From positions 1 through 64,000 of the forward strand of contig RFFQ01000003.1 of the NCBI GenBank assembly GCA_003697105.1: a DNA stretch of 64,000 nucleotides. The letters are read 5' to 3'. This DNA is from Gemmatimonadota bacterium (GTDB lineage Bacteria; 4572-55; J002). Shown here piece after piece: positions 10,712 through 27,313 of this stretch; within the stretch, counting starts at the first letter, position 1; each line of letters begins with the position of its first letter. Under the pieces are notes generated by a model. The model ran no database searches. It saw only the letters and a list, made by a program, of their open reading frames with translations, and was not told the origin of the DNA. Position numbers and translations under genes: made by a program.

Positions 10712-10792
10712 CCCTTCCCAACTCGCTAGAAGTACCTCTTCACCACAAATATACGTGTGTATTTCATAACCTATTTAAGGAGATATGTATCA

Positions 10793-12367
10793 ATGCGGCA
10801 GTTTCAATCTGTTCTGTTGATCCTTTGGATCGGCTTCGCCACCCTGACCGTACCGGTGGAAGCCCAAATGTACCATCCACGCAGTGTTATGGAAGCGTTG
10901 GACACCGCCGGCGAAAACCGCACCGAACTAGAAGCCGTGCTAAATCACTATCTGAATGAAAACGACCCGCTAAAATTACTCGCCGCTTATTATCTCATCG
11001 AGAATATGGGAGACCATAGCTACGTCACCATTGCCCTATATGATAGTACAAAAGCGGAAGTGGATTATGAGGTGCTCGCTTACCCCAATTTTGATTCCCT
11101 GTTGGTGGAGTTAGAAGCCATCGAAACAGAACGGGGAGAATTGAATTTTGATCGCAAAGCGAAAATCTTAGACCGGGAGGTGATCACCGCCGAATATCTC
11201 ATTCAAAATATCGATCTGGCATTCCAAGCCTGGCATGAAAAGCCCTGGGCACGTTGGTTGACCTTTGCCCAATTTTGTGATTACGTTCTGCCGTATCGGG
11301 GAAGCAATGAACCGCTGGAAGCATGGCGCGCCTACTTTTTGAGCGAATTTGCAAATCTACCGGATCAATTGGACAATCCAACCGATCCGGTAGCGGCGGC
11401 TCAACAGATCAACAATGGTATTAAAAGCTGGTTCGGATTTGATGCCCGATTTTATTTGCACCCCACAGACCAAGGGTTGAGTGAAATGCAACAGAACAAA
11501 CTCGGACGTTGCGAAGATATGACGAATCTGACAATTTATGCCATGCGGGCGAATGGCTTAGCCGTGACCAGTGATTACACCCCGCATTGGGCAGATACCG
11601 GTAACAATCATGCTTGGAATGCGATTTTACTACCCAACGGCAACGTCGTTCCATTTATGGGGTGTGAGGCGAATCCGGGGGAATATCACCTGAACCATAA
11701 AGCGGCAAAGGTGTATCGTAAAATGTTTGCCGAACAGCCGCAAAATTTGGCATTCCTTAAACCGGAGTGGGAGGCCGTACCCCGCTGGCTTGCCGGCAAA
11801 AATTACATAGATGTCACTGCAGATTACACGGAGGTTTGTGATGTCACCCTCACCCTCACGCAACCCGTACCGGATAGCGTTACCTTCGCGTATCTCGGTG
11901 TTTTCAATGCTGGAGAGTGGCGGGCAATCCACTGGGGCAAAATCGAACCCGACCGGCAAGTGACATTCACCGATATGGGCAAAAATATCGCGTATATCCC
12001 GCTCTATTATGTGCATGAGGAGTTAATCCCGGCCGGTGTGCCATTTATTTTGCAAGAAGACAACACGATCCGTCCGTTGATCGCCGATACCACCCAAACC
12101 GCAACAGTCAAGTTGATTTCCACGACCCGCCGGGTGTTGGATCGCTCCACAGATGGCATTGAACAAACCTTTTTAACCCCAGATACGGAATACGAACTCT
12201 TTTACTGGCAAGATGAATGGGTTTCGCTGGGTACGCAAATCGCCACGGAGAAACCACTTTACTTTGAAGCGGTGCCCCACGGCGGTCTCTACTGGCTGGT
12301 GGAGAAGGATTCGCGAGAAGAAGAGCGTATTTTTACTATGGAAAACGGGAAGCAAATTTGGTGGTAG
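10793..12367 (+). CDS. Secreted transglutaminase-like protein
   Basis: 524 residues from the ATG at 10793, preceded by AAGGAG; the longer GTG frame at 10757 lacks a ribosome site. Residues 1-25 form a signal peptide ending VEAQ. A transglutaminase/papain-like core lies near residues 225-290, with LGRCEDMTN (catalytic Cys) and NNHAWNAI (catalytic His); the usual third acidic residue is not obvious after NGNVVPF. A beta-rich C-terminal region follows. The family is common in Bacteroidota as cell-surface or periplasmic proteins that may cross-link or hydrolyse peptide bonds. It follows the kinase pair by 80 bases and is separated from the next convergent gene by a terminator. Confidence 0.8.
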   Translation: MRQFQSVLLILWIGFATLTVPVEAQMYHPRSVMEALDTAGENRTELEAVLNHYLNENDPLKLLAAYYLIENMGDHSYVTIALYDSTKAEVDYEVLAYPNFDSLLVELEAIETERGELNFDRKAKILDREVITAEYLIQNIDLAFQAWHEKPWARWLTFAQFCDYVLPYRGSNEPLEAWRAYFLSEFANLPDQLDNPTDPVAAAQQINNGIKSWFGFDARFYLHPTDQGLSEMQQNKLGRCEDMTNLTIYAMRANGLAVTSDYTPHWADTGNNHAWNAILLPNGNVVPFMGCEANPGEYHLNHKAAKVYRKMFAEQPQNLAFLKPEWEAVPRWLAGKNYIDVTADYTEVCDVTLTLTQPVPDSVTFAYLGVFNAGEWRAIHWGKIEPDRQVTFTDMGKNIAYIPLYYVHEELIPAGVPFILQEDNTIRPLIADTTQTATVKLISTTRRVLDRSTDGIEQTFLTPDTEYELFYWQDEWVSLGTQIATEKPLYFEAVPHGGLYWLVEKDSREEERIFTMENGKQIWW

Positions 12368-12372
12368 ATCAA

Positions 12373-12402
12373 TTGCACGGGTAGCTTCCCGCAACTATTT
12401 TT
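12373..12402 (+). terminator. Terminator after transglutaminase-like gene
   Basis: TTGC-A-CGGG (12373-12381) pairs with CCCGCAA (12388-12394) around a 6-base loop, with one bulged A, and is followed by CTATTTTTG. It lies between two convergent genes. Confidence 0.6.
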
Positions 12403-12430
12403 GTATCCTCCCAACTATGAAAAGTCGGGA

Positions 12431-13444
12431 TCATTTCAGCAAAATCATATACTTAGATGCCGTATAGCGTTCGGTTTCAAGTTGGTACATATAGAGACCA
12501 CTACCCACCGGATGTCCTTGCTGATTCGTCCCATCCCAGAAAACCGAGTATTCACCCGCCGGTTGTGTCGTTTCGAGTAAGGTCTTAATCAATTTTCCAG
12601 AAACATCATAAACACTCAATTTGAGATGGCTAGGGTGAGATAAATCATACGGGATTTGGGTTACCGGATTGAAAGGATTAGGGTAGTTTTGGTGCAATAC
12701 ATGTGTTGGAGGTATCGTAACACCATGATGAATTGCAACATCCGTTTGGAGATCAACATCAATTTTACGAGCTTGATATACTTCATGAGTGGTGTCATTT
12801 TGGATAAACACAACCACCGCTAAATTTTCGGCATTCCAATCTTCGGCGAGGGTAAATGACCGGTCTATGGTTACCGATTCCCCGGCTTGTGAAATCGAAA
12901 GGGGTTCATTCGCCAATAAATCCCGCAAAACATGATCAAACTGACGATTGAAATAGAAAAGTGAATCCTCAATGACCGCAAAATGGACAAAAACATTTGT
13001 TGAATCTATCGATTCTTCCAGAGTGACGGTAGCAGTTATCAAGCCTTCTGTAGCACCAATGGTAGCCCTTAAATCCAGTACCATTGGGCTTGGAATTCCC
13101 AACCGCGCTTGGACTTCCGGGAGATAAACATCATAGATTGTTGGCCAAGCACCCAAAACGTGCCTTACACCGTCAAAATAGGTATTGGGCGTACCTTCTA
13201 GCCCGTAATACGCCACCCATCGTTCCGTACCTTCTGGGATTTCATAAATATCTTCAAAATGATATTTAATGGGTGCAACATTATATTCATCGAGCAACTG
13301 CTCGACCGCGGCATACGCGTATGTACATGTCGCTCACCACACCGCCGTTTGCATTTCGATCAACACCGTTCGCTCTGCCGAAAAACCGGTTTGACTGCTA
13401 AAGAACATAATGGACATAATCAAACACAAAATGAATTTACGCAT
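12431..13444 (-). CDS. Candidate selenoprotein: secreted thioredoxin-like UxxC protein with type IX sorting domain
   Basis: The frame runs from ATG 13444 (AAGGAG six bases upstream) to 12431, 337 residues if the single in-frame UGA at 13336-13334 is decoded. Residues 1-23 are a signal peptide. Then RTVLIEMQTAVW-U37-ATC40-TYAYAAVEQLL follows, which is the start of a thioredoxin fold with UGA in place of the first Cys of WCxxC. Later come beta-sandwich-like sequence and a C-terminal sorting domain (NYPNPFNP at about 252, GLYMYQL, ending MILLK). The upstream 36 codons and downstream frame have no independent start signal. It lies 21 bases after merA and so is probably in the mer operon. Alternatives: nonsense mutation or sequence error at a TGT/TGC codon. 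Confidence 0.75.
13289..13306 (-). promoter_or_regulatory. Candidate bacterial SECIS hairpin
   Basis: On the mRNA, GUCGAGC (13306-13300) pairs with GCUCGAU (13295-13289) over seven pairs (one G-U) around an AGUU loop. The loop begins 34 bases after the UGA and has G in its second position. Known bacterial SECIS rules place a small loop with an early G about 16-37 bases after the UGA, so the element fits. Confidence 0.6.
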
Positions 13445-13465
13445 GGTTGGCTCCTTATCTTTGAG

Positions 13466-15112
13466 TTACGACGCACAACAACTGAGTTTATTCACATCTT
13501 TTCCAAAGGTGATTGCCGCAAGCTTAATACCTTCAGAAAGCGTTAAATACGGGTGAAAAGTTGAAATAAGTTGCGTGACGGTAATACCAAATTTAATGGC
13601 TAACGCAACCTCCATAAGTAATTCACCACCCTCAGAAGCTAGGATTCTCGCCCCAATAAGCTGATCCGTATGTTTATCCCGAATAAGTTTGATGAAACCT
13701 CTGGTATCCCGAGCCGCTAAGGATCGAGGCACATAAGATAAAGGTAAAACGGCGACATCGGCTTCCATTCCCTGTTCTTTGGCTTGTTTTTCATCGAGTC
13801 CGACACCGGCAACTTGGGGGTCAGTAAAGATCACCCAAGGCAGCGCCGTATAATCTTGCCGGCGATTCGCGCCGGTAAGTGCATTTTCCGCCGCTAAAGC
13901 CCCCTCATAAGCGGCAGTATAAACAAACTGGTATCCGCCAATCACATCCCCAGCCCCATAGATATGAGAAACGGTTGTTCGTAAAGTATCATCTACCTTT
14001 AAAAATCCGTTTTCATCTAAATCAACACCGGCATTTTCGAGACCCAGACCGGTAGTATTTGGTCGGCGTCCGGTAGCAACCAGAAGATGTGATGCCGCAA
14101 ACGTCGTTTCCTCATGGTTGACCCTTGCTGTGATCGTGATCAAACCGTTCGATGATTGAGCGTGAGTTAAGGTAGCACCCGTAACCACCTGAATCCCTTC
14201 ATCCTGAAGGTAACGGGTTAATTCGTCGGTTAAATCGGCTGTTTCAGAGGGTAAAATACGAGATGAGCGTTGTAAAACCGTTACCTTTGTCCCCAATCGG
14301 GCAAACATTTGTGCCAGTTCCAAAGCAACGTAGCGACCCCCCAAAACAATTAATGATTCGGGTAATTCGTTTAACTCAAAAGCGGTTTCGTTTGTTAAAT
14401 AATTACAGGTTTCAAGACCCGGTATCGGTGGTATTGATGGCGCGGCGCCGGTAGCAATCAGTACTTTATCGGCTTTGACGCGTTCGCCATTGACTTCAAC
14501 GGTATCTGAAGAAATGAATTTACCTGTACCTGTAATATACCGGAAGTTGGGTAAATCAGAGACAACATCGGTATATTTCGCCTGTCTGAGGTTTTCCACC
14601 AACTCGGTTTTCTGTTGGATAATCGATTTAAAGTCCGTAACCCGGCTAGTCCCCTCAATACCCTGAAAGTGGTGATGGTTCGCCCGATAATGTGCCTCAG
14701 CCGCCCGAATTAACGTTTTAGAAGGCACACAACCCACATTCACACAGGTACCACCTATCGGGAGACCGTCGTTGATCAGGGTAACAGTCGCCCCCAGTTC
14801 ATTAGCTTTTAATGCCGCTGAAAACGCCGCTGAACCCCCTCCAATAATGACCAAATGTTGGCGGTGACCGTCACCCGTAAGTATATGGCTCGGATAACCC
14901 GCATCCGACACAACACTCGCTAGAGTGTCTGGATGTGTCTTTTCAGCATCATATATCACCGTTGCCTGTTTATGGGCTAAATCGACCACAGCAGATTGCA
15001 CCCCATCTACCGTTGCCAGTGCTTTTTCCACTTGCGAAGCACAGCTAGGACACGTTATACCTTCTACCTGTAAAATTGCACTTTGCTGGCGAGTCGTACA
15101 GCATGCTTCCAT
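13466..15112 (-). CDS. merA: Mercuric reductase with N-terminal heavy-metal-binding domain
   Basis: 548 residues. MerA reduces Hg(II) to volatile Hg(0) with NADPH through FAD. An N-terminal HMA domain has Cys21-x-x-Cys24 (GITCPSCASQ). The FAD motif GGGSAAFSAA is at 91-100, and the redox pair Cys123/Cys128 lies in GGTCVNVGCVPSK. The C-terminal vicinal pair Cys545-Cys546, which delivers Hg to the active site in the partner subunit, is present in LSCCAS. The C-terminal dimerisation domain is intact. It starts two bases after the merTP stop. The HMA domain carries a stretch nearly identical to that of MerTP. Confidence 0.97.
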   Translation of the reverse strand: MEACCTTRQQSAILQVEGITCPSCASQVEKALATVDGVQSAVVDLAHKQATVIYDAEKTHPDTLASVVSDAGYPSHILTGDGHRQHLVIIGGGSAAFSAALKANELGATVTLINDGLPIGGTCVNVGCVPSKTLIRAAEAHYRANHHHFQGIEGTSRVTDFKSIIQQKTELVENLRQAKYTDVVSDLPNFRYITGTGKFISSDTVEVNGERVKADKVLIATGAAPSIPPIPGLETCNYLTNETAFELNELPESLIVLGGRYVALELAQMFARLGTKVTVLQRSSRILPSETADLTDELTRYLQDEGIQVVTGATLTHAQSSNGLITITARVNHEETTFAASHLLVATGRRPNTTGLGLENAGVDLDENGFLKVDDTLRTTVSHIYGAGDVIGGYQFVYTAAYEGALAAENALTGANRRQDYTALPWVIFTDPQVAGVGLDEKQAKEQGMEADVAVLPLSYVPRSLAARDTRGFIKLIRDKHTDQLIGARILASEGGELLMEVALAIKFGITVTQLISTFHPYLTLSEGIKLAAITFGKDVNKLSCCAS

Positions 15113-15114
15113 TG

Positions 15115-15714
15115 TCAGTCTCCTTTATCGGTTAATACTTTGGCAGAATATCCGGCCTTTGCGATCGCCTCAACGAGCTCGGCGGGATGGACGTGGCGAT
15201 CATCATACGTCACCGTCGCCTGTTTATGGGCTAAATCGACCACGGCAGATTGTACTCCATCTATTTCGATCAAAGCATGCTGGACATGTGCCACACATCC
15301 GGCGCAGGTCATACCTTCCACAGATAACGTGACCTGAGCAAACGAAAGGTTCGATTCCACCGTATCTACCGGTCGAACAAATGCGCCACTGTAATACGGA
15401 AAGGTCACTAATCCGATAATCACAGGTGCAAGCACCCATAGAAGAATTTTATTGAGTTGGTGTGTTTTGGATGCGGTCTTGGTGTGACACCCACATGAAT
15501 CTGCATTCTTTGGTTTGCGGTAAACAATGTAAAACGCGGTGAGGAACAACCCAATGGTTAAACCGACAAAAAGAGGACGGTAGGGTTCTATCACACTGGC
15601 AAAACCCACACTACCAAACCCCAATAGCGTAACCGCCAACGGTAAAATACAACATGAGGAGGCGGCAACGGCGGCTACGACAGCACCGAGAATGGGAAGT
15701 TGGTCGAATTTCAT
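15115..15714 (-). CDS. merTP: MerT-MerP fusion mercury transporter
   Basis: 199 residues. The N-terminal part is MerT-like, with hydrophobic helices and the vicinal Cys pair SSCCILPLAV (Cys21-Cys22), a further cysteine group (DSCGCH) near residue 73, and a third helix near 90-105. The C-terminal half is a MerP-like HMA domain with GMTCAGC near 136. The fusion joins inner-membrane Hg(II) import with the mercury-binding domain that hands the ion on to MerA; such MerTP fusions are known in Bacteroidota. It lies immediately before merA in the same transcript. Confidence 0.93.
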   Translation of the reverse strand: MKFDQLPILGAVVAAVAASSCCILPLAVTLLGFGSVGFASVIEPYRPLFVGLTIGLFLTAFYIVYRKPKNADSCGCHTKTASKTHQLNKILLWVLAPVIIGLVTFPYYSGAFVRPVDTVESNLSFAQVTLSVEGMTCAGCVAHVQHALIEIDGVQSAVVDLAHKQATVTYDDRHVHPAELVEAIAKAGYSAKVLTDKGD

Positions 15715-15782
15715 GAAATACCCTCCTTGTAGATTATGGTTTTAGAATAGTTGTGACGGATGTCAGATCACTAGGAGGTCTC

Positions 15783-16037
15783 TCACGATTGTCGTAACAT
15801 CGTTGCTAAGGATTCTAGTTCATGTTCATGGGGGAGTCCAACAAGTACAACCGTTCCATTCACCACCAGAGAAGGAACTGCTTTCACGTCATATTGCGCG
15901 GCGAGAGCACAACAACTGCCATCCTTGCATTCTGAAGATCGGTGGACTTCAATTTCGACATCCGGAAAGTGATGATGAAGCCGTTGGAGCGTTTTGTCGC
16001 ACAAGGGACACTCCGCACTAAAGAATTCAACCTTCAT
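15783..16037 (-). CDS. Small thioredoxin/glutaredoxin-like protein of the mer operon
   Basis: 84 residues with a thioredoxin-type fold: beta strand MKVEFFSAE, redox motif Cys10-P-L-Cys13, a cis-Pro region VKAVPSLVVNG, and an extra cysteine group SECKDGSCC (37, 42, 43) that could bind metal. It has no signal peptide and is therefore cytoplasmic. It lies 13 bases after merR and before merTP, so it is co-regulated with mercury resistance. A role in keeping thiols reduced or carrying Hg(II) is inferred. Confidence 0.8.
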   Translation of the reverse strand: MKVEFFSAECPLCDKTLQRLHHHFPDVEIEVHRSSECKDGSCCALAAQYDVKAVPSLVVNGTVVLVGLPHEHELESLATMLRQS

Positions 16038-16049
16038 CGTTAAGCCTCC

Positions 16050-16454
16050 TTAACTGGGAGGTTCAAGAGCCTCCAAAATCGGGCAATCACTTGTATTTTT
16101 ACGATGTTCACAGCAGGTGACCAGCGTGGACAAGGTCTGTTTCATCCGCTGGAGAGACTGAATTTTCAGTTCAATATCCTGAATCTTTGCCTCTGCCAGA
16201 CTCTTAACCGACTCACACGCCACATCCGCATGAACCCGTAATGCCAGAAGTTCCGCGATTTCTTTGAGTGAGAAACCCAATTCTTGAGCATGTTTAATGA
16301 ATCGAATTCGTTTCACGGTATCTGACGTGTACTGGCGATAACCTGACTCCGAACGTAACGGTTTCGGAAGGAGTTCTTGGCGTTCGTAGTAACGAATCGT
16401 CTGAATATTGACTTGGGCTTGTTTGGCTACTTTGCCAATGGTTAAATATTTCAT
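16050..16454 (-). CDS. merR: MerR mercury-responsive regulator
   Basis: 134 residues. The N-terminal winged helix-turn-helix (TIGKVAKQAQVNIQTIRYYE) is typical of MerR proteins. The Hg(II) ligands of MerR (Cys82, Cys117 and Cys126 in Tn501) correspond to Cys80 (VACESVK), Cys114 or Cys115 (TCCEH) and Cys124 (TSDCPI). The spacing and the SCPILEAL-like tail identify a mercury rather than zinc or copper sensor. It is the first gene of the operon it controls, unlike the divergent arrangement in many Proteobacteria. Confidence 0.95.
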   Translation of the reverse strand: MKYLTIGKVAKQAQVNIQTIRYYERQELLPKPLRSESGYRQYTSDTVKRIRFIKHAQELGFSLKEIAELLALRVHADVACESVKSLAEAKIQDIELKIQSLQRMKQTLSTLVTCCEHRKNTSDCPILEALEPPS

Positions 16455-16470
16455 CGGATCACCACTTTAC

Positions 16471-16502
16471 AAAGTAAAGGTTATACTTAAGTATAGAGTC
16501 AA
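16471..16502 (-). promoter_or_regulatory. MerR-type operator/promoter of the mer operon
   Basis: On the minus strand TTGACT (16502-16497) is followed by the perfect palindrome TATACTTAAGTATA (16495-16482). A TACTTT or TTACTT -10 lies at a spacing of 20 or 19 bases. The overlong spacer with a central dyad is the hallmark of promoters activated by MerR-family twisting. The -10 is about 17 bases from the merR start codon, giving a very short leader. Confidence 0.85.
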
Positions 16503-16681
16503 GCGTTTTTTCGACCTGATAGCGTCGTTCACCGTCACTGGACTACTCCCAGCCTCAACAACGTGCTGTTTTTTGGATATTTGCCAAACAGACCAGTCTC
16601 CGGCATATCGGAGATGTCACAATGGTAGAATCGGACTGCCTGCCTGAAAAGCACCGGCAAGCCTGATTCGTACCCCCCAAT

Positions 16682-19600
16682 CTAGGTTACATCATGTTGA
16701 GAATGTTGAGAGATATTGAAATGAAATGTTGTCTCTTTAATCCAGCAATAGAGCGTGGGCACTACAAAGATGGTAATCACCACGACTAACATCCCACCAA
16801 ATGTCGGGATTGCCATTGGCACCATGATGTCGGACCCACGTCCGGTGGAGGTCAACACGGGCAACAGGGCGAGCACGGTTGTTGCCACGGTCATCAGTGC
16901 CGGGCGCACCCGGCGTTGGCCCGCTTCAATGGTGGCTTCCCGAATCGCATCGATGGATGCCGGAACGCGTTTGGCAAACGTCTGATCGAGATATGTAGCG
17001 ATAATCACCCCATCGTCACTGGCAATACCAAACAATGCCAAGAAACCAACCCACACCGCGACACTTAAATTGATCGGCTCAATCTGGAAAAGCTGGCGAA
17101 AGTCGATCCCAAAGAAGGAAAAATCCAAAAACCAGGACTGACCATACAGCCAAAGCAAAATAAACCCTCCAGACCACGCCACCAAAATCCCGGAGAAGAC
17201 GAGGGCGGTCGTGGAAATCGACTTAAATTGAAAATAGAGAATCAAAAAGATGATAAATAGCGCCACCGGTAGAATAACGGCCAGTTTTTTCTGTGCCCGA
17301 ATCTGGTTTTCGTAACTACCGGCAAAGCGATAGCTCACACCGGCGGGTATCTCAAATTCGCCGCTTTCAATCTTCGCTTGCAGATAGGCTTGTGCCTGTT
17401 CGACCACATCGACTTCCGCAAACCCCGGCTTTTTATCAAACGTGACATATCCGACTAAAAACGTATCTTCACTTTTGATCACCTGTGGACCCCGGACATA
17501 TTGGATCTCTGCCAGTTGCCCCAGGGGAATCTGAGTACCTCCCACGGCGGCCACTAAAATGTCTTTCAGGTCTTCAATGTCGTCCCGCAATTCGCGGAGG
17601 TATCGAACCCGCACGGGATAGCGTTCGCGTCCTTCGACCGTCATACTGACCGGCTTGCCGCCAATAGCGGTCTCAATCACATCCTGAACCTGTTTGACAT
17701 GGATACCGTACCGGGCGATTTTATCCCGGTCAATATGAATTTCCAGATACGGCTTACCGACAATCCGGTCTGCATTGACCGCCGCCGGCTCGATGGCGGG
17801 CACTTCCCGTAAAAATTGTTCGATCTGCAACGCCACGGTTTCAATCGTTTTGAGATCGGGACCCTTGATTTTGACCCCCATCGGCGCTCGCATCCCGCTT
17901 TGCAACATAACAATACGGGTGGCAATCGGTTGTAATTTAGGGGCTGAGGTCGTGCCGGGGATTTCCCCCGCCTTGACAATCTCATCCCAGATATCATCCG
18001 GGGATTGGATGCCCGTCCAGGCGCTCCGTCCCGGATTCAGCGCGGGGTCTAGGGCCGGGCGCCATAACCGGAACGGCTGACCGTGTTCATCGGGGATTAA
18101 CCGATTCTTTTCATCGCGCAGATACGTTCCCCGCACTCGATATGGCTCACCGTCAGGGGCAAGTAAGGGCGTACCAGACACATCCCGAAAATAATCATTT
18201 TTAGTCCGGTCATATTTAAATCGCACCCGCCGCCCGTGCTCATCTCGTAAATATTCCGGTTTGTAGTTAATGATCGTCTCGATCATGGAGATCGGGGCGG
18301 GGTCAAGCGGAGTTTCTGCCCGGCCGAGTTTCCCCACCGCCTGTTCCACTTCCGGGATGGCATAAAACGCCCGGTCCTGGAGTTGTATCACGTCAAGTAC
18401 CTCACCGATGGAAGCGTGCGGCATCGTGGTCGGCATGTACAAAAACGAGCCTTCATCAAGCGGCGGCATAAACTCCTTACCCAGTCCCGGAAATTGGTGC
18501 AACACCACAGAAACCGGCTTCCAGCGCTTGACCGGCTGGGGCAACCAGCCAAACAGAGCATCAAAACCCAACCAGATCAGCCCTCCAAATAACACAATCA
18601 GCGCCGGAAGGCTCAAAAAAAGAATCTTATGGTGCAAACACCACCGTAAAATGGAGGGATACGCCCGTTGAAAAAGCAGAAAAAAGGTCAGAAAGCCGCC
18701 GAGGATCATCCCCACAAAAAGAGTGTTCCACAGCAAACCGCGTTCAACCCCCAAAGGTAGCCAGTGCCGGGTGAGTAAAATCAGAACTACCAAAACCACC
18801 AGATAATGGGTTAAGTAAGGTGACCATTTATACAGGTAAGAAAGCCACTTTTGGCGGGGTTGAGCGACAGGGCGGACGTCTTGAATAAAACCATTGATAC
18901 CCATCAAGATCACCAACAACCCGATCCACAGATTCACCATAACGGCTAGGAAACATCCAAGCACTCCAATCAAACTATAGAACAGCCGCCGGACGTAAGC
19001 GCTACGCACCTTACCGGTAAATAACAGTTGCGCAAATGGCGGAATGATGGTCAACGCCACGATGATGGAGGCAAAAAGCGCAAACGTTTTGGTAAATGCC
19101 AGCGGCTTAAATAGCTTTCCTTCCGCCCCGATCATGGTAAAGACCGGCAAAAAGCTGACAATAGTCGTCGAAACAGCCGTGAGTACCGCCGAACCAACCT
19201 CCGTTGATGCCCGGTAGATAACCTCCAGACGCGGTTCGTCGGGATCGGCTTCATCCAAGTGTTTGAGGATATTCTCACAAATGACAATCCCCATATCGAC
19301 CATCGTCCCGATGGCAATCGCAATCCCGGACAGCGCAACAATGTTGGCATCGACTCCCGCATAGCGCATGGCAATGAAGCACATCAGCACGGCTAACGGG
19401 AGCAATCCGGAGATCAATATTGAACTACGTAAGTGCATCACCATCAGAATAACCACGATGATCGTAACCAGAATTTCGTCAGTGAGGGCACTTTCTAACG
19501 TGCCGAGGGTCTCATAGATCAAACCGGTACGATCATAAAACGGGACAATGGTGACTTGGCTTACGGTACCATCAGCAAGTGTTTTTTTCGGTAAGCCGGG

Positions 19601-20596
19601 GGCGATTTCCGCAATTTTTTGCTTCACATTCTGGATGGCTTCCAAGGGATTTTCGCCGTAACGCACCACGACCACCCCGCCAACGACTTCCGCCCCCTCT
19701 TTATCCAGTGCGCCCCGTCGTAGCGCAGGACCCAAACTGACATGCGCCACATTTTTGACCAGTACCGGCACCCCATCCACAGCTTTGACAACCGCTTTTT
19801 CCAGATCGGATAATGCCTTTACAAAACCAATCCCGCGGATTACATACTCCACTTTATTGATTTCGATGGTGCGAGCGCCGACATCCAAATTTGACATACG
19901 TACGGCATTAATCACGTCAGTAAGCGTGATGCCATAAGCACGCATGGCATCGGGGTCCACATCAATTTGATACTCCTGCACAAAACCACCAATCGACGCC
20001 ACTTCACTGACTCCTGCGGCAGATTGCAAGCCATATTTCACGTAAAAATCTTGAATGGTACGCAGTTCGTGCAAATCCCAACCGCCGGTCGGGTTTCCTT
20101 GCGGGTCGCGCCCTTCCAAGGTGTACCAAAAAACTTGTCCCAGTGCGGTGGCATCCGGACCAAGACCCGGACGAACCTCCGGGGGCAACGTGTTGGGGGG
20201 AAGACTGCTCAGTTTCTCTAAAATTCGGGAACGAGACCAGTAGAACTCCACATCTTCATCAAAAATGACATAAATTGTTGAAAAACCGAACATGGAGTAA
20301 CTCCGGATCGTCTTCACGCCGGGAATCCCGAGTAACGCAACGGTCAACGGATATGTCACTTGATCTTCCATATCCTGCGGCGAACGTCCCATCCATTCCG
20401 TAAAGACAATCTGCTGATTTTCACCGATGTCTGGGATGGCATCTACGGGCACGGGGTCCCGGGGCAACCCCCCCAGTTGCCAATCAAAGGGAGCCGTCAT
20501 CAATCCCCATCCGACAAAAAGGATGAGGACGAGGATAACCACAAATTTATTTTCTAAGCAAAATCGAATCAGGGTATCTAAAGGTGATGTTTTCAT
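16682..20596 (-). CDS. cusA: CusA/CzcA-family heavy-metal RND efflux pump
   Basis: 1304 residues, an inner-membrane proton-driven RND pump for monovalent or divalent heavy-metal ions. It begins with the usual first helix (FVVILVLILFVGW), followed by the porter segment DIGENQQIVFTEWMGRSPQDMEDQVTYP (long motif at residues 55-82), and has TM4 with GTMVDMGIVICEN. MLQSGMRAPMGVKI marks the metal-relay region, and Met-rich positions suggest Cu/Ag. It is about 250 residues longer than E. coli CusA because of extra hydrophobic segments near 530-660 and a hydrophilic insert near 770-890, as seen in Bacteroidota relatives. It lies at the 3' end of the efflux locus. Confidence 0.93.
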   Translation of the reverse strand: MKTSPLDTLIRFCLENKFVVILVLILFVGWGLMTAPFDWQLGGLPRDPVPVDAIPDIGENQQIVFTEWMGRSPQDMEDQVTYPLTVALLGIPGVKTIRSYSMFGFSTIYVIFDEDVEFYWSRSRILEKLSSLPPNTLPPEVRPGLGPDATALGQVFWYTLEGRDPQGNPTGGWDLHELRTIQDFYVKYGLQSAAGVSEVASIGGFVQEYQIDVDPDAMRAYGITLTDVINAVRMSNLDVGARTIEINKVEYVIRGIGFVKALSDLEKAVVKAVDGVPVLVKNVAHVSLGPALRRGALDKEGAEVVGGVVVVRYGENPLEAIQNVKQKIAEIAPGLPKKTLADGTVSQVTIVPFYDRTGLIYETLGTLESALTDEILVTIIVVILMVMHLRSSILISGLLPLAVLMCFIAMRYAGVDANIVALSGIAIAIGTMVDMGIVICENILKHLDEADPDEPRLEVIYRASTEVGSAVLTAVSTTIVSFLPVFTMIGAEGKLFKPLAFTKTFALFASIIVALTIIPPFAQLLFTGKVRSAYVRRLFYSLIGVLGCFLAVMVNLWIGLLVILMGINGFIQDVRPVAQPRQKWLSYLYKWSPYLTHYLVVLVVLILLTRHWLPLGVERGLLWNTLFVGMILGGFLTFFLLFQRAYPSILRWCLHHKILFLSLPALIVLFGGLIWLGFDALFGWLPQPVKRWKPVSVVLHQFPGLGKEFMPPLDEGSFLYMPTTMPHASIGEVLDVIQLQDRAFYAIPEVEQAVGKLGRAETPLDPAPISMIETIINYKPEYLRDEHGRRVRFKYDRTKNDYFRDVSGTPLLAPDGEPYRVRGTYLRDEKNRLIPDEHGQPFRLWRPALDPALNPGRSAWTGIQSPDDIWDEIVKAGEIPGTTSAPKLQPIATRIVMLQSGMRAPMGVKIKGPDLKTIETVALQIEQFLREVPAIEPAAVNADRIVGKPYLEIHIDRDKIARYGIHVKQVQDVIETAIGGKPVSMTVEGRERYPVRVRYLRELRDDIEDLKDILVAAVGGTQIPLGQLAEIQYVRGPQVIKSEDTFLVGYVTFDKKPGFAEVDVVEQAQAYLQAKIESGEFEIPAGVSYRFAGSYENQIRAQKKLAVILPVALFIIFLILYFQFKSISTTALVFSGILVAWSGGFILLWLYGQSWFLDFSFFGIDFRQLFQIEPINLSVAVWVGFLALFGIASDDGVIIATYLDQTFAKRVPASIDAIREATIEAGQRRVRPALMTVATTVLALLPVLTSTGRGSDIMVPMAIPTFGGMLVVVITIFVVPTLYCWIKETTFHFNISQHSQHDVT

Positions 20597-20744
20597 GAGG
20601 TTACATCCTATACTGACAAGGTGATAAAATCCGGGTATAATTCCGTTTCGCTAACCGGTTTGACACCCACACGGCAGTGAATCATGCCAACCCCAAACGT
20701 AAAAAGTGGTAGCGCGGCACAACCCACCGTGCCAGCAAGTTTGA

Positions 20745-22946
20745 TTAGCGTAGCAGGATCAACGGCTGCTGATCGACCTGGTCGTCCACCTGAAGTTGCA
20801 ACAGATAGAAGCCGCTCTTCACGGGCATTCCCTGTGAGTCAATCCCTCGCCAAATCAGGGAATAACGCCCTGCGGACTGGTGATACCGAAAAGATCGCCA
20901 TACCAAGCGACCCGTAGCATCATATATGTTAAGATACACACTTGCTGAGGTAGTGAGATCATAACAAATGGAGGTATGGGGATTGAAAGGGTTCGGGTAA
21001 CTTGGAAGCAACCGGAATCTTGCCGGAGTCCCGATGTTAGCCGGTGCCGGGTTAAGAGCAACCATCTCATCTTCAAACTGAAGAACCCGCAAGCCCGTCC
21101 CATAATTTCCAACCGTGACATAATCCCCGGAAACAGAAACTCCCACCAATTGACCCGGCGTATTAAAAAAGCCGGCTTCTTCAATGTGGAAGGGGTCACT
21201 CACATCAAAAACAACAAGCCCATCCCAATTGCAGGCGGCATAGGCAAAATCCCCCACAACATCCACCTGCCAGACATAATCTTCAACCAGATGGTGTCCC
21301 AATTCCACCGGTTCTTGATCCTGTTGAACATCGTAAATACGCAACCCCCCCTCCATCGCGCAGACATACGCTAAATTGCCCTGCACCTGAACGTCCCGCG
21401 CCACGCCGGGCGTTGCGGTTGAGCTAATCTCTTGTGGCAGGGTCGGATCACTGACATCAATGATCTGCAAATAACCCGTTAGAAAATCCGGTTGAATGAC
21501 TGCTAGATAAAGGCGGTCACCCGCTACATCTAACCCAAAAGCGCGGTGATCCGGTGGTAACGGGTATGACCCAACTTCCTGTGGATTTGCCGGATCGGAA
21601 ATATCAATCACCCGCACGCCCGCGGCATAAGCGGCAACATAGGCATAATCACCAGAGACATGAACATCCTTCGCCTGGTCCGGTAGGGCAACAGACCCGA
21701 TCTCAACCGGAGCCGCGGGATCGCTGACATCAATCAGATATAGGGCACTACCGGAATAATCGGGAGAATCTAACGTGAGATACGCCACCTGCCCTTCAAC
21801 CGTCACACCCCAAGAGAAACCTTCCGCCTCAAACTGGCCGGCAAGTCTGGGATGTGTGGGGTCAGCCAAGTCATAAATCAGCAGTCCACCGAAATAATCT
21901 GAGACATACGCTATTTGATCCCGGGTAAGCACATCCCAGGTATAAATCGGCGGCGTATATTGGGCAACTTCCTGAGGCGGAACGGGTTGAGAGTACCAGA
22001 ACACCCCATCTTGATAATCGGTAAAAACAAGAAGGTCATTTGTTACGTCAAGTCCGCGGGGTTCCGGTGTGTTTAACAAACCAACGGGATTAATATTCTG
22101 AAAATCTGAGATGTCTAGGAGATGGATTCCATCTGTTTGGGTTGAAACATAGGCGGCCGTTTCTCCCACCACAAGCTCGGTAGCACCGGGCAGATGGTAA
22201 AATCCCACTTCCAGAAGTAATTCTGGATTGGAAAAATCCACGATAGAGACACCCAATGCCGCATCTGCAATAAATACAAAGGAGTCTCTCACAAAAAGGG
22301 AGCGGGGAGTTTCCAATTGGGAAAAAACACCGATTTCCACCGGCATCTCAGGTGTAGTGAGGTCAAAAAGGTATAAGAATCCTCCGTCACCATCCGCTGC
22401 GAGAACAAAAAGCCGCTCATTTTGGGCGCTCACCCGCCCGACCGGTTCCGCCAGCGACAGGTAATCCAAAACCTGCGGATTCGCCGGATTGGAAACGTCC
22501 AAGATCGCCACATTTTGTTGTTCCACAACATAGGCGTACTGCCCGGCAACAGCGACATCAAAAATACGAGCTTCTGGATTAAAGGCGCCTACTTCCACCG
22601 GATTCAGCGGGTCTGAAACATCCACAATCCGCAAACCGGCACTTTGGGCGGCAATATAGAGCAAATGACCCTCTTGAACCATTGCGGTCGCACGCTGATT
22701 GAATGCCGGGTCGTGAAAGGTCGCTACCGATCGGGGTTGAAGCGGGTCGCTGAAATCAATCACCGAGAGTAAAAAATCGTTAGTGACATCCGCCAGCACA
22801 TACGCATACGGGTCATCTACAATCACGGAATGCGGTTGTCCGAGGGTGAGTTGCCCGACCGGCGTAACATTCCAACGGTCTTGGGCAACACCCACGGATG
22901 CGGCTATCATCAATAAAATCAACATACTAGAAAAACAAAAACGCAT
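20745..22946 (-). CDS. Secreted LVIVD-repeat beta-propeller protein with type IX sorting domain
   Basis: 733 residues from the ATG at 22946, which has GGGGG upstream (an ATG 12 bases earlier is possible). A signal peptide (residues 1-21) is followed by about 14 repeats of the form AYV..GL.I.DVSDP..P.E.G, the LVIVD repeat that builds beta-propellers. The last 80 residues are a sorting/FlgD-like domain (YPNPFNPHTSICYDL, SGFYLLQL, ending LILLR) for export across the outer membrane. It sits between cusB and cusA, so it may be co-expressed with metal efflux. Its role is unknown. Confidence 0.85.
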   Translation of the reverse strand: MRFCFSSMLILLMIAASVGVAQDRWNVTPVGQLTLGQPHSVIVDDPYAYVLADVTNDFLLSVIDFSDPLQPRSVATFHDPAFNQRATAMVQEGHLLYIAAQSAGLRIVDVSDPLNPVEVGAFNPEARIFDVAVAGQYAYVVEQQNVAILDVSNPANPQVLDYLSLAEPVGRVSAQNERLFVLAADGDGGFLYLFDLTTPEMPVEIGVFSQLETPRSLFVRDSFVFIADAALGVSIVDFSNPELLLEVGFYHLPGATELVVGETAAYVSTQTDGIHLLDISDFQNINPVGLLNTPEPRGLDVTNDLLVFTDYQDGVFWYSQPVPPQEVAQYTPPIYTWDVLTRDQIAYVSDYFGGLLIYDLADPTHPRLAGQFEAEGFSWGVTVEGQVAYLTLDSPDYSGSALYLIDVSDPAAPVEIGSVALPDQAKDVHVSGDYAYVAAYAAGVRVIDISDPANPQEVGSYPLPPDHRAFGLDVAGDRLYLAVIQPDFLTGYLQIIDVSDPTLPQEISSTATPGVARDVQVQGNLAYVCAMEGGLRIYDVQQDQEPVELGHHLVEDYVWQVDVVGDFAYAACNWDGLVVFDVSDPFHIEEAGFFNTPGQLVGVSVSGDYVTVGNYGTGLRVLQFEDEMVALNPAPANIGTPARFRLLPSYPNPFNPHTSICYDLTTSASVYLNIYDATGRLVWRSFRYHQSAGRYSLIWRGIDSQGMPVKSGFYLLQLQVDDQVDQQPLILLR

Positions 22947-23011
22947 GGATACCCCCATTAGTAGAAATGAATTTCACTATATACACACTTCGCCTTATCT
23001 TAACTTCATAA

Positions 23012-24784
23012 CTAAGGGATTATGGTTTCAATTTGTTCCCCACAGCGGAGCATCTGCGCACCAAAATAGGGATTTTCCACACCCGGTTTATTTTGCAACC
23101 AATCCGCCCCCTGGTCCCCGAATGCCATCGGGCAATGAAAAACCAACACCGGTTGAGTATCGCTAATGTCAAATTGTTTCGCCACGGAAATCAGTGTCGT
23201 GGAGAGTTTCTCAAACTTCGTACGGGCAATGTCGATAACAATGGCACGCGCTATACCGGCGGCGTTATCTTTTAGCACTGGTAAATGGCTCATCCATAGA
23301 TGGTGGGCGTCATCTTGTAACACGCTCATATCCACGTTTTCCAAAGCACGAGTCATGGCGTTTCCAGCGGCTTTGGCGTCCTCTAAATTATCATGACTGA
23401 GGGCTTGCTGTATCTCAAAATAGGCGGAAAACACGGCATCCAATTGGCGCTGAAACACGGGTGGTACTTCCAGCAATGAGGGGGGAGATGATGCCGCTAC
23501 CGGAGTCCTCGCCACCGGCATCTCCCCATGCTGATGGGCGGACGAGGTTGCACCCCCTTCTGGATTCATCATACTCGGTTTGGCAAGGATTTGCAACGCA
23601 CTATCAATCTTGAAGTTACCATAAGTGACAACGTGTTCACCTTCACCGAGTCCTCGCTTGACAATGTAGAAATCACCCACGCGGTCACCCAACACGATTT
23701 CGCGCCCTTCAAACACACCTTCTTGTTCGGGGTCTGCCACATACACAACGGCACGTTTCCCGGTAATCAAGGGTGCTGAAGCGGGGATAACCAGTGGGGG
23801 TCTTGTCGTGCTGGGATCGGCTTGGAGGAGGGCCCGCACGAACATTTCCGGCTTGAGCTTACCCTGTGGATTCGGAACACTCACCCGGAAGTTCACTGTG
23901 CGCGTGTGAGGATTTAAAATGGGGTCAATAAATTCAATATTCCCTGTAAATGACTCACCGGGATAGGCTTCGGTGGTCAATTCTACCGGCAACCCTTCAT
24001 GAATCCAGGATAAATCGGATTCATACGCCTCCAGCCAGACCCACAAATTGGAGAGGTCGGCTAAGGTGTAAATTTCGGTGCCCGTGTTGACATACATGCC
24101 TTCCACCGCATTCTTATGGGTCACGATACCGCTGGCGGGCGCTAACACCGTAATATGGTCTTCCGCCGAGCCTCGATCTTGGATGGCTTGAATCTGAGCG
24201 GCGGAGAGTCCAAATAGTTCTAGTTTTTTCCGGCTGGCATTCACCAGCACGTCAGACTTCAACCGTAATGCTTGCAAATACTCTTCTTGCAAGGTCAACA
24301 GCTTCGGGCTGTAAACATCCGCCACCGGTTGACCGTTGTTGACGGTGGTACCGGTAAAATCAATATGTAATTTGTCAATCCGGCCCGGGATCCAGGCGGT
24401 GATTTTGGTCAGGCGGGTTTCATCCACATCCAATTTACCGACCAGCCGTAGTTCTGCCGACAGCGCGCGGCGTTCCACGGGGGAGGTTTGAATGTGTGCC
24501 AATTTGATCGCCGCCGGTGAGAGTTTAATCTGGCGGGGATTGTCACTTTGATGGTCATCACCGGTGCTTACGGGGATCAGTTCCATGGCACAAATGGGGC
24601 ACAACCCCGGCTTGGGTTGGCGGATTTGGGGGTGCATGGAGCAGGTCCATTCCGTGACCGTGGCTGTGGATTCCGGCGCTGATATGGACGGTGCCGGACT
24701 CCCACCACCGCGGACGATAAAACCGGTGGTGAATGCCAAACCAACAAAAACCAGCAAAATTGCCCATTGTTTGCGGGTAAACAT
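23012..24784 (-). CDS. cusB: CusB-type periplasmic adaptor with metal-binding and DUF3347 domains
   Basis: 590 residues from the ATG at 24784, preceded by GAGGTGA; the longer frame starting at 24844 lacks a site. One N-terminal membrane anchor (VFVGLAFTTGFIV) is followed by a heavy-metal-binding motif (WTCSMHPQIRQPKPGLCPIC near residues 47-66), the barrel-sandwich and alpha-hairpin domains of RND membrane-fusion proteins, then a His-containing linker (SSAHQHGEM) and a C-terminal DUF3347 domain ending GEQIETIIP. It links CusA to the TolC-type channel and carries metal to the pump. Confidence 0.93.
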   Translation of the reverse strand: MFTRKQWAILLVFVGLAFTTGFIVRGGGSPAPSISAPESTATVTEWTCSMHPQIRQPKPGLCPICAMELIPVSTGDDHQSDNPRQIKLSPAAIKLAHIQTSPVERRALSAELRLVGKLDVDETRLTKITAWIPGRIDKLHIDFTGTTVNNGQPVADVYSPKLLTLQEEYLQALRLKSDVLVNASRKKLELFGLSAAQIQAIQDRGSAEDHITVLAPASGIVTHKNAVEGMYVNTGTEIYTLADLSNLWVWLEAYESDLSWIHEGLPVELTTEAYPGESFTGNIEFIDPILNPHTRTVNFRVSVPNPQGKLKPEMFVRALLQADPSTTRPPLVIPASAPLITGKRAVVYVADPEQEGVFEGREIVLGDRVGDFYIVKRGLGEGEHVVTYGNFKIDSALQILAKPSMMNPEGGATSSAHQHGEMPVARTPVAASSPPSLLEVPPVFQRQLDAVFSAYFEIQQALSHDNLEDAKAAGNAMTRALENVDMSVLQDDAHHLWMSHLPVLKDNAAGIARAIVIDIARTKFEKLSTTLISVAKQFDISDTQPVLVFHCPMAFGDQGADWLQNKPGVENPYFGAQMLRCGEQIETIIP

Positions 24785-24911
24785 GTAAATCACCTCACAG
24801 TTAGGAAGTTTAAAATAGGTCACAACGACCCCAAGAGAAGGCACAGCGAATCCAATACCGTCCTCATAGAGCCGGGCGAATTAAAGAAAATCACCTAAAC
24901 TGAGAGGGGAA

Positions 24912-25280
24912 TCAAATGATCAGAGGTGGCGAAAATCCGGGGAAAATTAGTGTGGGATACGGTATGGCGAGATCAGCGTAAGTGAGGGATTCCCAAGTGA
25001 CACATTGCAGGGAACTTTCAGGTTGAACACCAAGGGTAAAAATGGGGGAAAGTACCTGATCGGAGATCGATGGTTGCTCAACCAAGATATGGCAACAGGG
25101 AGTTTGCGCCAACCCGTCTGCGGTAGGGCGGGGAACGGCACAGCATGAGCTGGCATCACCCCCGGTATACACCTGCACCTCTTGAAAATCTCGCATCAGA
25201 CAGGTGTGATACTGCAATGGCAGCCCGAGGGTCGCAACACTGTAAATCAGAATAAAAATAAATGATACAGATTGACGCAT
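24912..25280 (-). CDS. HYC_CC_PP-like small secreted cysteine protein (copy 1)
   Basis: 122 residues with a signal peptide (1-20) and the pattern YHTC, SSCCA, TPCCH, then a Pro-rich C-terminus (FPGFSPPLII). This matches the HYC_CC_PP family that commonly accompanies heavy-metal efflux genes in Bacteroidota. The paired cysteines and the histidines could bind a soft metal in the periplasm. It lies upstream of cusB. A paralogue at 28635-29009 has the same order of motifs. Confidence 0.75.
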   Translation of the reverse strand: MRQSVSFIFILIYSVATLGLPLQYHTCLMRDFQEVQVYTGGDASSCCAVPRPTADGLAQTPCCHILVEQPSISDQVLSPIFTLGVQPESSLQCVTWESLTYADLAIPYPTLIFPGFSPPLII

Positions 25281-25294
25281 GAAAACTCCAAAGA

Positions 25295-25319
25295 AAGCGG
25301 CACAACACGTGCGCCGCTT
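25295..25319 (-). terminator. Weak intercistronic hairpin
   Basis: AAGCGGC (25295-25301) pairs with GCCGCTT (25313-25319) around 11 bases. The minus strand then reads TCTTTGGAGTTTT. It lies between the 38-residue peptide gene and the small cysteine protein and could be a partial terminator. Confidence 0.4.
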
Positions 25320-25326
25320 GCAGAAC

Positions 25327-25443
25327 CTACTTTTTCGGTTTATCCAACTGAGCGTTTAATTTCGCGTTCAGTGCGGCTTTTTTTCGCTTGAGATAGGCTT
25401 TGCGGCGTTTACGCTTACGGTGTACCCGGTGCGGTTTACTCAT
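25327..25443 (-). CDS. 38-residue highly basic peptide
   Basis: An ATG at 25443 is preceded by AAAGGAGGTGA, one of the best ribosome sites in the window, and the frame ends at TAG 25327. The product starts MSKPHRVHRKRKRRKAYLK and has about 19 Lys/Arg and 2 His, with no acidic residue before position 34. Its size and composition recall the short ribosomal-subunit proteins of the AURKAIP1/COX24 or bTHX type, but I cannot confirm the family. It lies between DUF302 and an HYC_CC_PP-like gene. Confidence 0.7.
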   Translation of the reverse strand: MSKPHRVHRKRKRRKAYLKRKKAALNAKLNAQLDKPKK

Positions 25444-25536
25444 AGTTCACCTCCTTTCCCGAACATAGAAGATAAGTAATTGACATCACTACAATTAAAT
25501 AAAATTCTGGAAAAGAGGCAAGGCTTAATTTACCGC

Positions 25537-25923
25537 TTACAGACGTTCAATAACCTTTTTCAGACGAGATTGCACCTCTTGGGCAACCGTCCCCAGTTGG
25601 TCGTTTTGTATGGCTTGCATCGAAGCCAACGGGTCAACGGCGGCAACCTCAATGCGACCATCATCCAATTGTTGGACAATTACATTACAGGGTAACATGG
25701 TGCCAATTTTATCCTCTGCCAACAGTGCCTTATGGGCAAACGGCGGGTTACAGGCGCCCAAAATACGGTAAGGACGGAAATCCACATCCAGTTTTTTCTT
25801 TAAGGTCGCCTTGACATCTATTTCGGTGAGAATACCAAATCCTTCTTTTTGGAGTTCTTCCGTAACCCGTTGTATCGCTTGATCAAACGTAGTATCTAAG
25901 ATCGTGTTAAAGTAGTAACTCAT
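25537..25923 (-). CDS. DUF302 family protein
   Basis: 128 residues matching the DUF302 layout: an N-terminal TFDQAIQRVTEELQKEGFGILTEID-type strand-helix (residues 12-36), the central segment YRILGACNPPFAHKAL with a conserved Cys, and LPCNVIVQQL with a second Cys. There is no signal peptide. These proteins are frequent beside metal-efflux and sulfur genes, and their biochemical function is unknown. It lies 14 bases downstream of the GNAT gene and is likely co-transcribed. Confidence 0.88.
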   Translation of the reverse strand: MSYYFNTILDTTFDQAIQRVTEELQKEGFGILTEIDVKATLKKKLDVDFRPYRILGACNPPFAHKALLAEDKIGTMLPCNVIVQQLDDGRIEVAAVDPLASMQAIQNDQLGTVAQEVQSRLKKVIERL

Positions 25924-25937
25924 TGATAAACCTCATA

Positions 25938-26528
25938 TTAGGCATTAGGGTTTAGAGTAGATTGAAGCCGTGCTTTGATCGGTTCCCACTCAGTAGCTAA
26001 GATACGGTAATAGACCGAATCCCGGTAGCGACCATCCGGTAAAATCATGTGATGGTGTAAAATCCCTTCTTGTTTCGCACCAAGCCGCTCAATTGCCCGC
26101 CGGGAACGGGTATTGAGTACATCCGTTTTGAATTCGACCCGGATGCAATTCCAGACCTCAAAGGCATGGGTCAGCATCAACCATTTTGCTTCGGTATTCA
26201 CGGCGGTGCGTTGAAATCGGGGTGTAATCCAGGTCCAGCCAATTTCGACGCGTCGGTGTTCCGGTGCGATATTACCAAAGCGAGTGGAACCAACAACCGT
26301 ATTGGTGGCGGTATGCACTGTGACAAAAGGCAACGCAACGCCTTGTGCTTGTTGGTCCAATGCCGCACTAACATAAGCCACCATATCTTCAGGGGTGGCG
26401 ACGATACTCGTCATATACTCCCATATTTCAGGGTAATTTGCCGCTTGGAACAGTGCCGGAATATGATCGCGCGTCAGTGGCTCTAACCGGACAAACGGCC
26501 CTTCCAAAATAACCGGTTCAATCTTCAT
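25938..26528 (-). CDS. GNAT N-acetyltransferase (RimJ/RimL-like)
   Basis: 196 residues. The RimJ/RimL-type GNAT fold is indicated by the N-terminal LEGPFVRLEPLTRDHIPALF, VEIGWTWITPRFQRTAVNTE (acetyl-CoA-binding strand and loop, residues 92-111) and AIERLGAKQEGILHHHM near residue 150. It probably acetylates a small molecule or an N-terminal amine; the substrate is unknown. It sits within the metal-efflux operon order without an obvious link to it. Confidence 0.85.
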   Translation of the reverse strand: MKIEPVILEGPFVRLEPLTRDHIPALFQAANYPEIWEYMTSIVATPEDMVAYVSAALDQQAQGVALPFVTVHTATNTVVGSTRFGNIAPEHRRVEIGWTWITPRFQRTAVNTEAKWLMLTHAFEVWNCIRVEFKTDVLNTRSRRAIERLGAKQEGILHHHMILPDGRYRDSVYYRILATEWEPIKARLQSTLNPNA

Positions 26529-26545
26529 AAATAAAACCGAAATCC

Positions 26546-26581
26546 TGCCGCCAGGATGATTTTAGCAACCTCCTGGCGGCA
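26546..26581. terminator. Perfect intercistronic inverted repeat
   Basis: An 11-bp perfect repeat (TGCCGCCAGGA at 26546-26556, TCCTGGCGGCA at 26571-26581) with a 14-base loop lies between the YHS protein stop and the GNAT start. On the minus strand it is followed only by GGATTTCGGTTTT, so it is a weak terminator or an mRNA-stabilising hairpin. Confidence 0.5.
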
Positions 26582-26589
26582 TAGATTAA

Positions 26590-27297
26590 TTAGTGGTTAT
26601 GCCCCGAATGGTCTGATTTACTCTTGGTATCATCCATTTTATGGGCTTCATCATGCTTCATACCCTCTTTTTGGGGTGCTTCGGCAAAGATAATACCTTC
26701 TGCTTCCAGTTCCGTCATTCGTTCTTCGGTCATTTTGGATTCACAACTGGCGCAACAAAAATAGACCCGCTTCCCGTTTATATCTTTATACACTTCCTTG
26801 TCGATGGGATTTCCCATGATCGGACACACCGATTGCAAATGTGCCACGGTAATGCCCTTATCCGCCATTTCTTTGGCATATTTATCAAAATTGGCTTCGA
26901 CATCTTTGTTGCAGTCGGCACAACAGGTGTAAATTCGTTGCCCATCTTTATCCACATACGAATTTTTATCAATTTCATGCCCGCTTATAGGGCAGGTGGT
27001 TTGTAATTTGACCCCGGTGTTGCCTTCTTCCGTACTCGCCTTTAATTTTTCCATATACTTATCGGGATTTGCTTCAAAGGCTTCTTTACAGTCGGCGCAA
27101 CAAAAATAGACCTTTTGCCCATTATGCATAACAAACACAGAGGGGTCAACCGCTTCACCACCAACGGGGCAAACTTTGTTAGTAACTTCTTCAGCGGGTT
27201 TAACGTCAGCTTGTTTTGCCAGAGCAATATCCGCCGAAAAAAGTGACAGGGAAAACGCGATGATCATCGCGAACAGAAGAAATTGAATTTTACGCAT
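26590..27297 (-). CDS. Triple-YHS-domain periplasmic metal-binding protein
   Basis: 235 residues from the ATG at 27297, preceded by AAGGAGG; the upstream extension overlaps the tolC-type gene and is rejected. A signal peptide ending IALA is followed by three YHS-type units, each with CP-x2-G and Y-x-CCA-x-C motifs (VCPVGGEAV/YFCCADC, TCPISGHEI/YTCCADC, VCPIMGNPI/YFCCASC). The tail is His-rich (DHSGHNH). YHS domains bind soft metals, so this is likely a periplasmic copper or silver buffer feeding the efflux system. Confidence 0.88.
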   Translation of the reverse strand: MRKIQFLLFAMIIAFSLSLFSADIALAKQADVKPAEEVTNKVCPVGGEAVDPSVFVMHNGQKVYFCCADCKEAFEANPDKYMEKLKASTEEGNTGVKLQTTCPISGHEIDKNSYVDKDGQRIYTCCADCNKDVEANFDKYAKEMADKGITVAHLQSVCPIMGNPIDKEVYKDINGKRVYFCCASCESKMTEERMTELEAEGIIFAEAPQKEGMKHDEAHKMDDTKSKSDHSGHNH

Positions 27298-27313
27298 GGT
27301 AAAATCCTCCTTT

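Follow-up and report, generated by a model that had tools for sequence, protein, structure and literature searches.

The window, that is, the whole stretch of 64,000 nucleotides analysed here, belongs to the genome of an uncultured bacterium (G000; 4.18 Mb, 97% complete). On its minus strand lies a gene that contains an in-frame UGA codon and carries the following features.

12431 to 13444, minus strand: gene for an Omp28/HBP35-like thioredoxin with a type IX sorting tail, read as containing selenocysteine (Sec); 337 residues, terminal stop UGA
13334 to 13336, minus strand: UGA codon, very probably read as selenocysteine 37 in WUATC, from the reading and the alignment of homologues
13376 to 13444, minus strand: predicted signal peptide, residues 1-23, from the translation read by eye (basic N-terminus, hydrophobic stretch, SA/ER boundary)
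13451 to 13456, minus strand: ribosome binding site AAGGAG, from the sequence 5' of ATG 13444

From ATG 13444 the minus frame reads MRKFILCLIMSIMFFSSQTGFSAERTVLIEMQTAVW-UGA-ATC-TYAYAAVEQLL... and runs through 300 codons between the UGA at 13336-13334 and the terminal UGA at 12433-12431, the former occupying the first position of a UxxC motif (TAVW-U-AT-C). A preliminary description had placed the in-frame UGA in this very frame, and its coordinates are exact; the good ribosome site it had claimed is found as AAGGAG, the signal peptide is likewise predicted, the resolving Cys40 is kept in WUATC, and the 300 codons do lead to a type IX sorting domain. It had also warned that the gene would be called from an internal codon and its active site missed, which is what the standard ORF list does by opening the gene at TTG 13297. 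The main product could then be a short one, translated from internal starts past the UGA and devoid of the thioredoxin motif, in keeping with the 288-residue frame opened by that TTG and with the 29 and 27 kDa products of HBP35 (PMC2907840); yet UxxC is conserved and the short form lacks the signal peptide, so that its type IX tail would not be usable, and a mainly short product is very improbable.

As to its domains, the protein matches the Omp28 family (PF11551) with 51.9 bits against a gathering score of 34.9, and FlgD_ig, a FlgD-like/type IX tail, with 46.4 bits; its C-terminal sorting domain reaches 30.8 bits with TIGR04183 (cut-off 23) and 24.2 bits with Pfam PF18962, slightly under the cut-off of 27. 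The structure model (mean pLDDT 86) places Sec37 directly before helix 38-53, as in thioredoxins, and Pro86 ahead of the strand that follows. Structural comparison ranks HBP35 of Porphyromonas gingivalis first (PDB 5y1a; Z 23.2, rmsd 2.5, 209 residues), with both the thioredoxin and the following beta domain superposing; next come the Agrobacterium protein 2axo (Z 18.6) and Omp28 (2r2c, Z 10.7), while the tail aligns with that of PorU (Z 10.1). HBP35 also shares the type IX C-terminal domain, but it carries Cys48/Cys51, binds hemin, is 18% identical in sequence and has no known mer linkage. Omp28 of P. gingivalis, for its part, has been described as a lipoprotein of the outer membrane, whereas the window protein combines a type IX tail with a Sec motif. 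HBP35 is a surface-exposed thioredoxin whose reduction of insulin needs both active-site cysteines (PMC2907840). PorU sortase, the one component of the type IX system that was searched for, is encoded in G000 (649.9 bits, cut-off 420). The HBP35-like fold in the model, the type IX tail and PorU together make a surface thiol/selenol-disulfide oxidoreductase acting like HBP35 the most likely assignment, and the window protein would thus be surface-located and redox-active.

The profile of the family finds members in 44 of 192 genomes. G000 itself holds four Sec members, three of them outside the mer genes described below, as well as ordinary Cys forms; the paralogues of the window gene are these.

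C186:39467: UGA paralogue TATWUVYC, UGA in the same column as in the window gene
2 kb beyond C186:39467: UGA paralogue TSTTUPVC, UGA in the same column
C185:163: UGA paralogue TADWUTYC, UGA in the same column
C186, at 34.5 kb: Cys paralogue TGAWCQNC, ordinary Cys
Adjoining the TSTTUPVC gene: Cys paralogue TSTTCPPC, ordinary Cys

Outside G000, UGA homologues occur in 17 genomes, and every full-length homologue interrupted by a single in-frame stop has TGA there; the aligned TGA falls within the CxxC motif, at the first Cys save for a few displaced by one column, and the UGA forms of G192, G121 and G178, checked individually, have it in UxxC. The position that the preliminary description had identified as the attacking Cys is therefore one at which homologues carry either Cys or UGA. 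The sole other genome of the phylum in the sample, G001, has Cys forms only. In a tree that leaves out the C186:39467 paralogue, Sec and Cys forms are mixed, with 13 changes between them, at least 8 of which are forced by well-supported branches; Sec and Cys have thus been exchanged many times. Moreover, selA exceeds its cut-off in 17 of 17 tested genomes with UGA forms vs 7 of 18 Cys-only genomes, some of the latter having weak or partial family matches alone (Fisher p 7.6e-5). No relatives were found when plasmid records were searched for the Sec domain, and a contig search with the full window protein retrieved mostly type IX tails.

The UGA might still be a nonsense mutation or an assembly error in a true Cys gene, hence a pseudogene or a misread, for the record is a draft assembly in 199 contigs. 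However, the same motif carries UGA in three paralogues and in homologues of 17 other genomes, which makes a sequencing error or chance nonsense very unlikely, as the preliminary description had judged of a random nonsense codon from the window alone. Constraint also persists 3' of the UGA, where substitutions amount to 27-40% at codon positions 1 and 2 vs 56-65% at position 3, and this counts against a pseudogene. A mutated or misassembled Cys gene is, on these grounds, highly improbable.

Two further observations concern the same family. Within an Omp28/type IX gene cluster (L124:7355-15706, corresponding to C186:37355-45706), the motifs TTVGNELC, WUVYC, TTUPVC and TTCPPC stand as a natural side-by-side series of degenerate (TTVGNELC, motif lost), Sec, Sec and Cys forms. 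In L165 (G135:C176), L045 and L050 the motif varies, the UGA being shifted or the resolving Cys lost: one variant is CGUA, and two Cloacimonadota have DCUGVDG / DCUGPDG-like motifs, a pair that is gapped in the alignment; these variants possibly reflect a different Sec chemistry.

The machinery for Sec insertion, whose genes the preliminary description had proposed to look for, is encoded in G000: selC encodes a tRNA-Sec over the Rfam cut-off with anticodon UCA, and selB (383.8 bits, cut-off 242), selA (585 bits, cut-off 268) and selD (356 bits, cut-off 125) are all present. UGA lies inside several frames of G000, which could also be expected of a changed genetic code with UGA as a sense codon everywhere; against it, UGA remains an ordinary stop that ends 13 of the window's 38 long open frames as well as the Sec gene itself (12433-12431), the tRNA-Sec with its UCA anticodon is there together with SelA, SelB and SelD, and the residue found opposite the in-frame UGA in the alignment is Cys rather than Trp or Gly. 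A changed code is thus the least credible of the readings considered. Separately, selD of G000 (C12:941-1864, L012) is a selenoprotein gene itself, its in-frame UGA lying in CAGUASK at the active site, the known Sec position of SelD.

Downstream of the UGA, within the coding region, two hairpins can be drawn.

13289 to 13306, minus strand: putative SECIS element of the bacterial type, a hairpin with a 7 bp stem whose apical loop AGUU starts 34 nt past the UGA, -10.3 kcal/mol
13307 to 13319, minus strand: second, weaker hairpin with a 4 bp CGCG stem, between the UGA and the main hairpin

The published bacterial model takes a loop of 3-9 nt with G in one of the first two positions, a stem of 4-16 bp, a spacing of 16-37 nt and an energy of -7.5 kcal/mol or lower (PMC13188914). 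The hairpin at 13289-13306 satisfies this model, a SECIS search having been suggested in the preliminary description, and 2% of its own synonymous recodings fold equally well. In a comparison at -7.5 kcal/mol of UGA genes with Cys genes, and of both with their synonymous recodings, the model was passed by 15/24 UGA genes vs 4/33 Cys genes and by 10-14% of the recodings; in their ranks against recodings, UGA and Cys genes differ with p 4e-6. The main hairpin is common to six UGA genes from four genomes, in which four of its seven pairs have changed on both sides; 95% of cells are paired, falling to 14-45% if the partner is slid by 1-3 columns, a count favoured by the six genes having been chosen for their common loop. 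A seventh gene, from G192, was found later with the same CAGUUG loop, stem and place. This covariation is a further argument against a nonsense mutation or assembly error. The second hairpin, with 79% of cells paired across the six genes, competes with the main one, and in the minimum-energy structure of the 56 nt the pairing is a different one; a scan of 12000-17000 with Rfam gave no matches.

The reading frame, the Sec/Cys pairing, the Sec machinery, the SECIS candidate, the fold and the gene order are all computational observations, in the light of which the UGA at 13336-13334 is very probably read as selenocysteine, the product being a secreted Omp28/HBP35-type thioredoxin-fold protein into which selenium would actually be incorporated. 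In such a scheme, SelA, SelB, tRNA-Sec and SelD of the organism would recode the UGA under the guidance of a SECIS hairpin within the coding region. The product would comprise the signal peptide, a thioredoxin domain with WUATC, an Omp28-like beta domain and the type IX C-terminal domain, the last of which would direct its export to the cell surface. Once displayed, Sec37 would attack a disulfide through its selenolate, and Cys40 would resolve the selenenylsulfide.

This kind of selenoprotein is already known, a fact that the preliminary description left out. GOS_C was described in 2008 as a family with a Trx-like fold, UxxC and 74 Sec sequences (PMC2398784), and a 2026 inventory lists it as NF045500, 'Omp28-related selenoprotein', also with UxxC (PMC13188914). 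The thioredoxin-like fold, the UxxC motif and the occurrence of Sec/Cys pairs are common to these accounts and to the window protein; their accessible text makes no mention of a mer linkage or of a type IX tail (PMC2398784, PMC13188914). NF045500 is the best NCBIfam match of the window protein, but its score of 78.9 bits stays well under the cut-off of 200, and the protein is therefore filed as a bacterial selenoprotein related to GOS_C, outside the called membership of NF045500; the UGA paralogues in G000 score 60-74 bits against the same cut-off.

The new part is the mer linkage, an unusual one, which was likewise absent from the preliminary description: the window Sec gene closes a mer operon, the other parts of which are listed here.

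13466 to 15112, minus strand: merA, mercuric reductase with an N-terminal HMA domain (TIGR02053 574.7 bits, cut-off 454)
15115 to 15714, minus strand: merT/merP fusion-like mercury transporter (MerT 58.7, HMA 75.9; NF033556 138 bits, under the cut-off of 180)
15783 to 16037, minus strand: small thioredoxin-like protein with CPLC, ordinary Cys (Thioredoxin_3 38.8 bits)
16050 to 16454, minus strand: merR-type regulator (MerR TIGR02051 144 bits, under the cut-off of 150.85)
16483 to 16502, minus strand: MerR-type operator/promoter TTGACTCTATACTTAAGTAT before merR (one match; 0 in 100 shuffles)

The operator motif is the pattern known from mer promoters. All genes lie on the same strand in the order merR-trx-merTP-merA-Sec gene, with gaps of 12, 68, 2 and 21 nt, and a convergent gene at 10757-12367 ends the operon; the shared strand, the short gaps and the common MerR-type promoter all agree with the Sec gene being a component of it. 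With its gene in last position behind merA, the Sec protein is probably co-expressed with the mer proteins. None of the mer genes beside it has an in-frame UGA, and MerTP and MerA keep their Cys.

Other features of this neighbourhood are worth recording. For a mer operon, the location of the small thioredoxin-like CPLC gene, flanked by merR and merTP, is unusual. A 63-nt direct repeat (14947-15009 / 15201-15263, 90% identical) corresponds to the same HMA piece in merA and merTP and points to a recent duplication or gene conversion within the operon. Immediately upstream lies a CusCBA-like heavy-metal efflux island (16682-28552, minus strand), which encodes OEP, a TRASH/YHS protein, CusB with a heavy-metal-binding domain, an LVIVD protein with a FlgD-like tail, and CusA.

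Beyond G000 the linkage is not seen in the genomes and neighbourhoods searched. Among 35 genomes searched, merA exceeds its cut-off in the window genome alone, and no merA orthologue was found in the fetched neighbourhoods of other family members; a weak match in L125 was rejected as a dihydrolipoyl dehydrogenase-like gene. The open-access literature searched yielded no paper joining selenocysteine, or mer, with type IX secretion. The mercury-handling selenoproteins named in the inventory, namely a MerT-type transport protein, the UxxU metal-binding protein NF041115, SaoL and HgcA/HgcB, have other folds and places than the window protein, none being a secreted thioredoxin behind merA (PMC13188914).

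What the spot behind merA means is the point on which the readings part. The gene may encode a selenoprotein and yet be a member of a multi-copy family that landed by the mer operon without consequence, which is compatible with the Sec reading and competes with a mercury role alone. Four Sec members in G000, three of them outside mer, and a linkage found in one genome speak for such a landing; the same strand, the 21 nt from merA, the last place before the convergent neighbour and the MerR-type operator before merR speak against it, as does the stronger binding of methylmercury by selenols than by thiols (PMC7602710), an affinity that makes a mercury role chemically sensible. A meaningless landing comes close to an even chance. 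The Sec paralogues outside mer indicate that the core role of the family is not mercury, and together with the linkage of merA in one genome they leave a mercury role of the window protein on the doubtful side.

Were there such a role, the likeliest one beside the mer genes would be the protection or repair of surface thiols under mercury stress, or else the retention of Hg(II) on the cell surface. A role in mercury defence at the surface is plausible, on the evidence of one genome. Tentatively, the window protein may be a mercury-induced surface selenoprotein forming the outer line of the mer system, whose Sec37/Cys40 pair would bind Hg(II) or free blocked thiols before import by MerTP for MerA. 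No described mer operon is known to include an outer surface selenoprotein of this function.

When gene calling is blind to UGA, the active site goes unseen in an entire group of secreted thioredoxins, four such genes being present in G000 alone, none of which reaches the NCBI family cut-off. Selenium chemistry is hereby suggested at the cell surface, a place where it has hardly been looked at so far, and the merA neighbourhood suggests that this surface chemistry is tied to mercury, whose affinity for selenium is very high.
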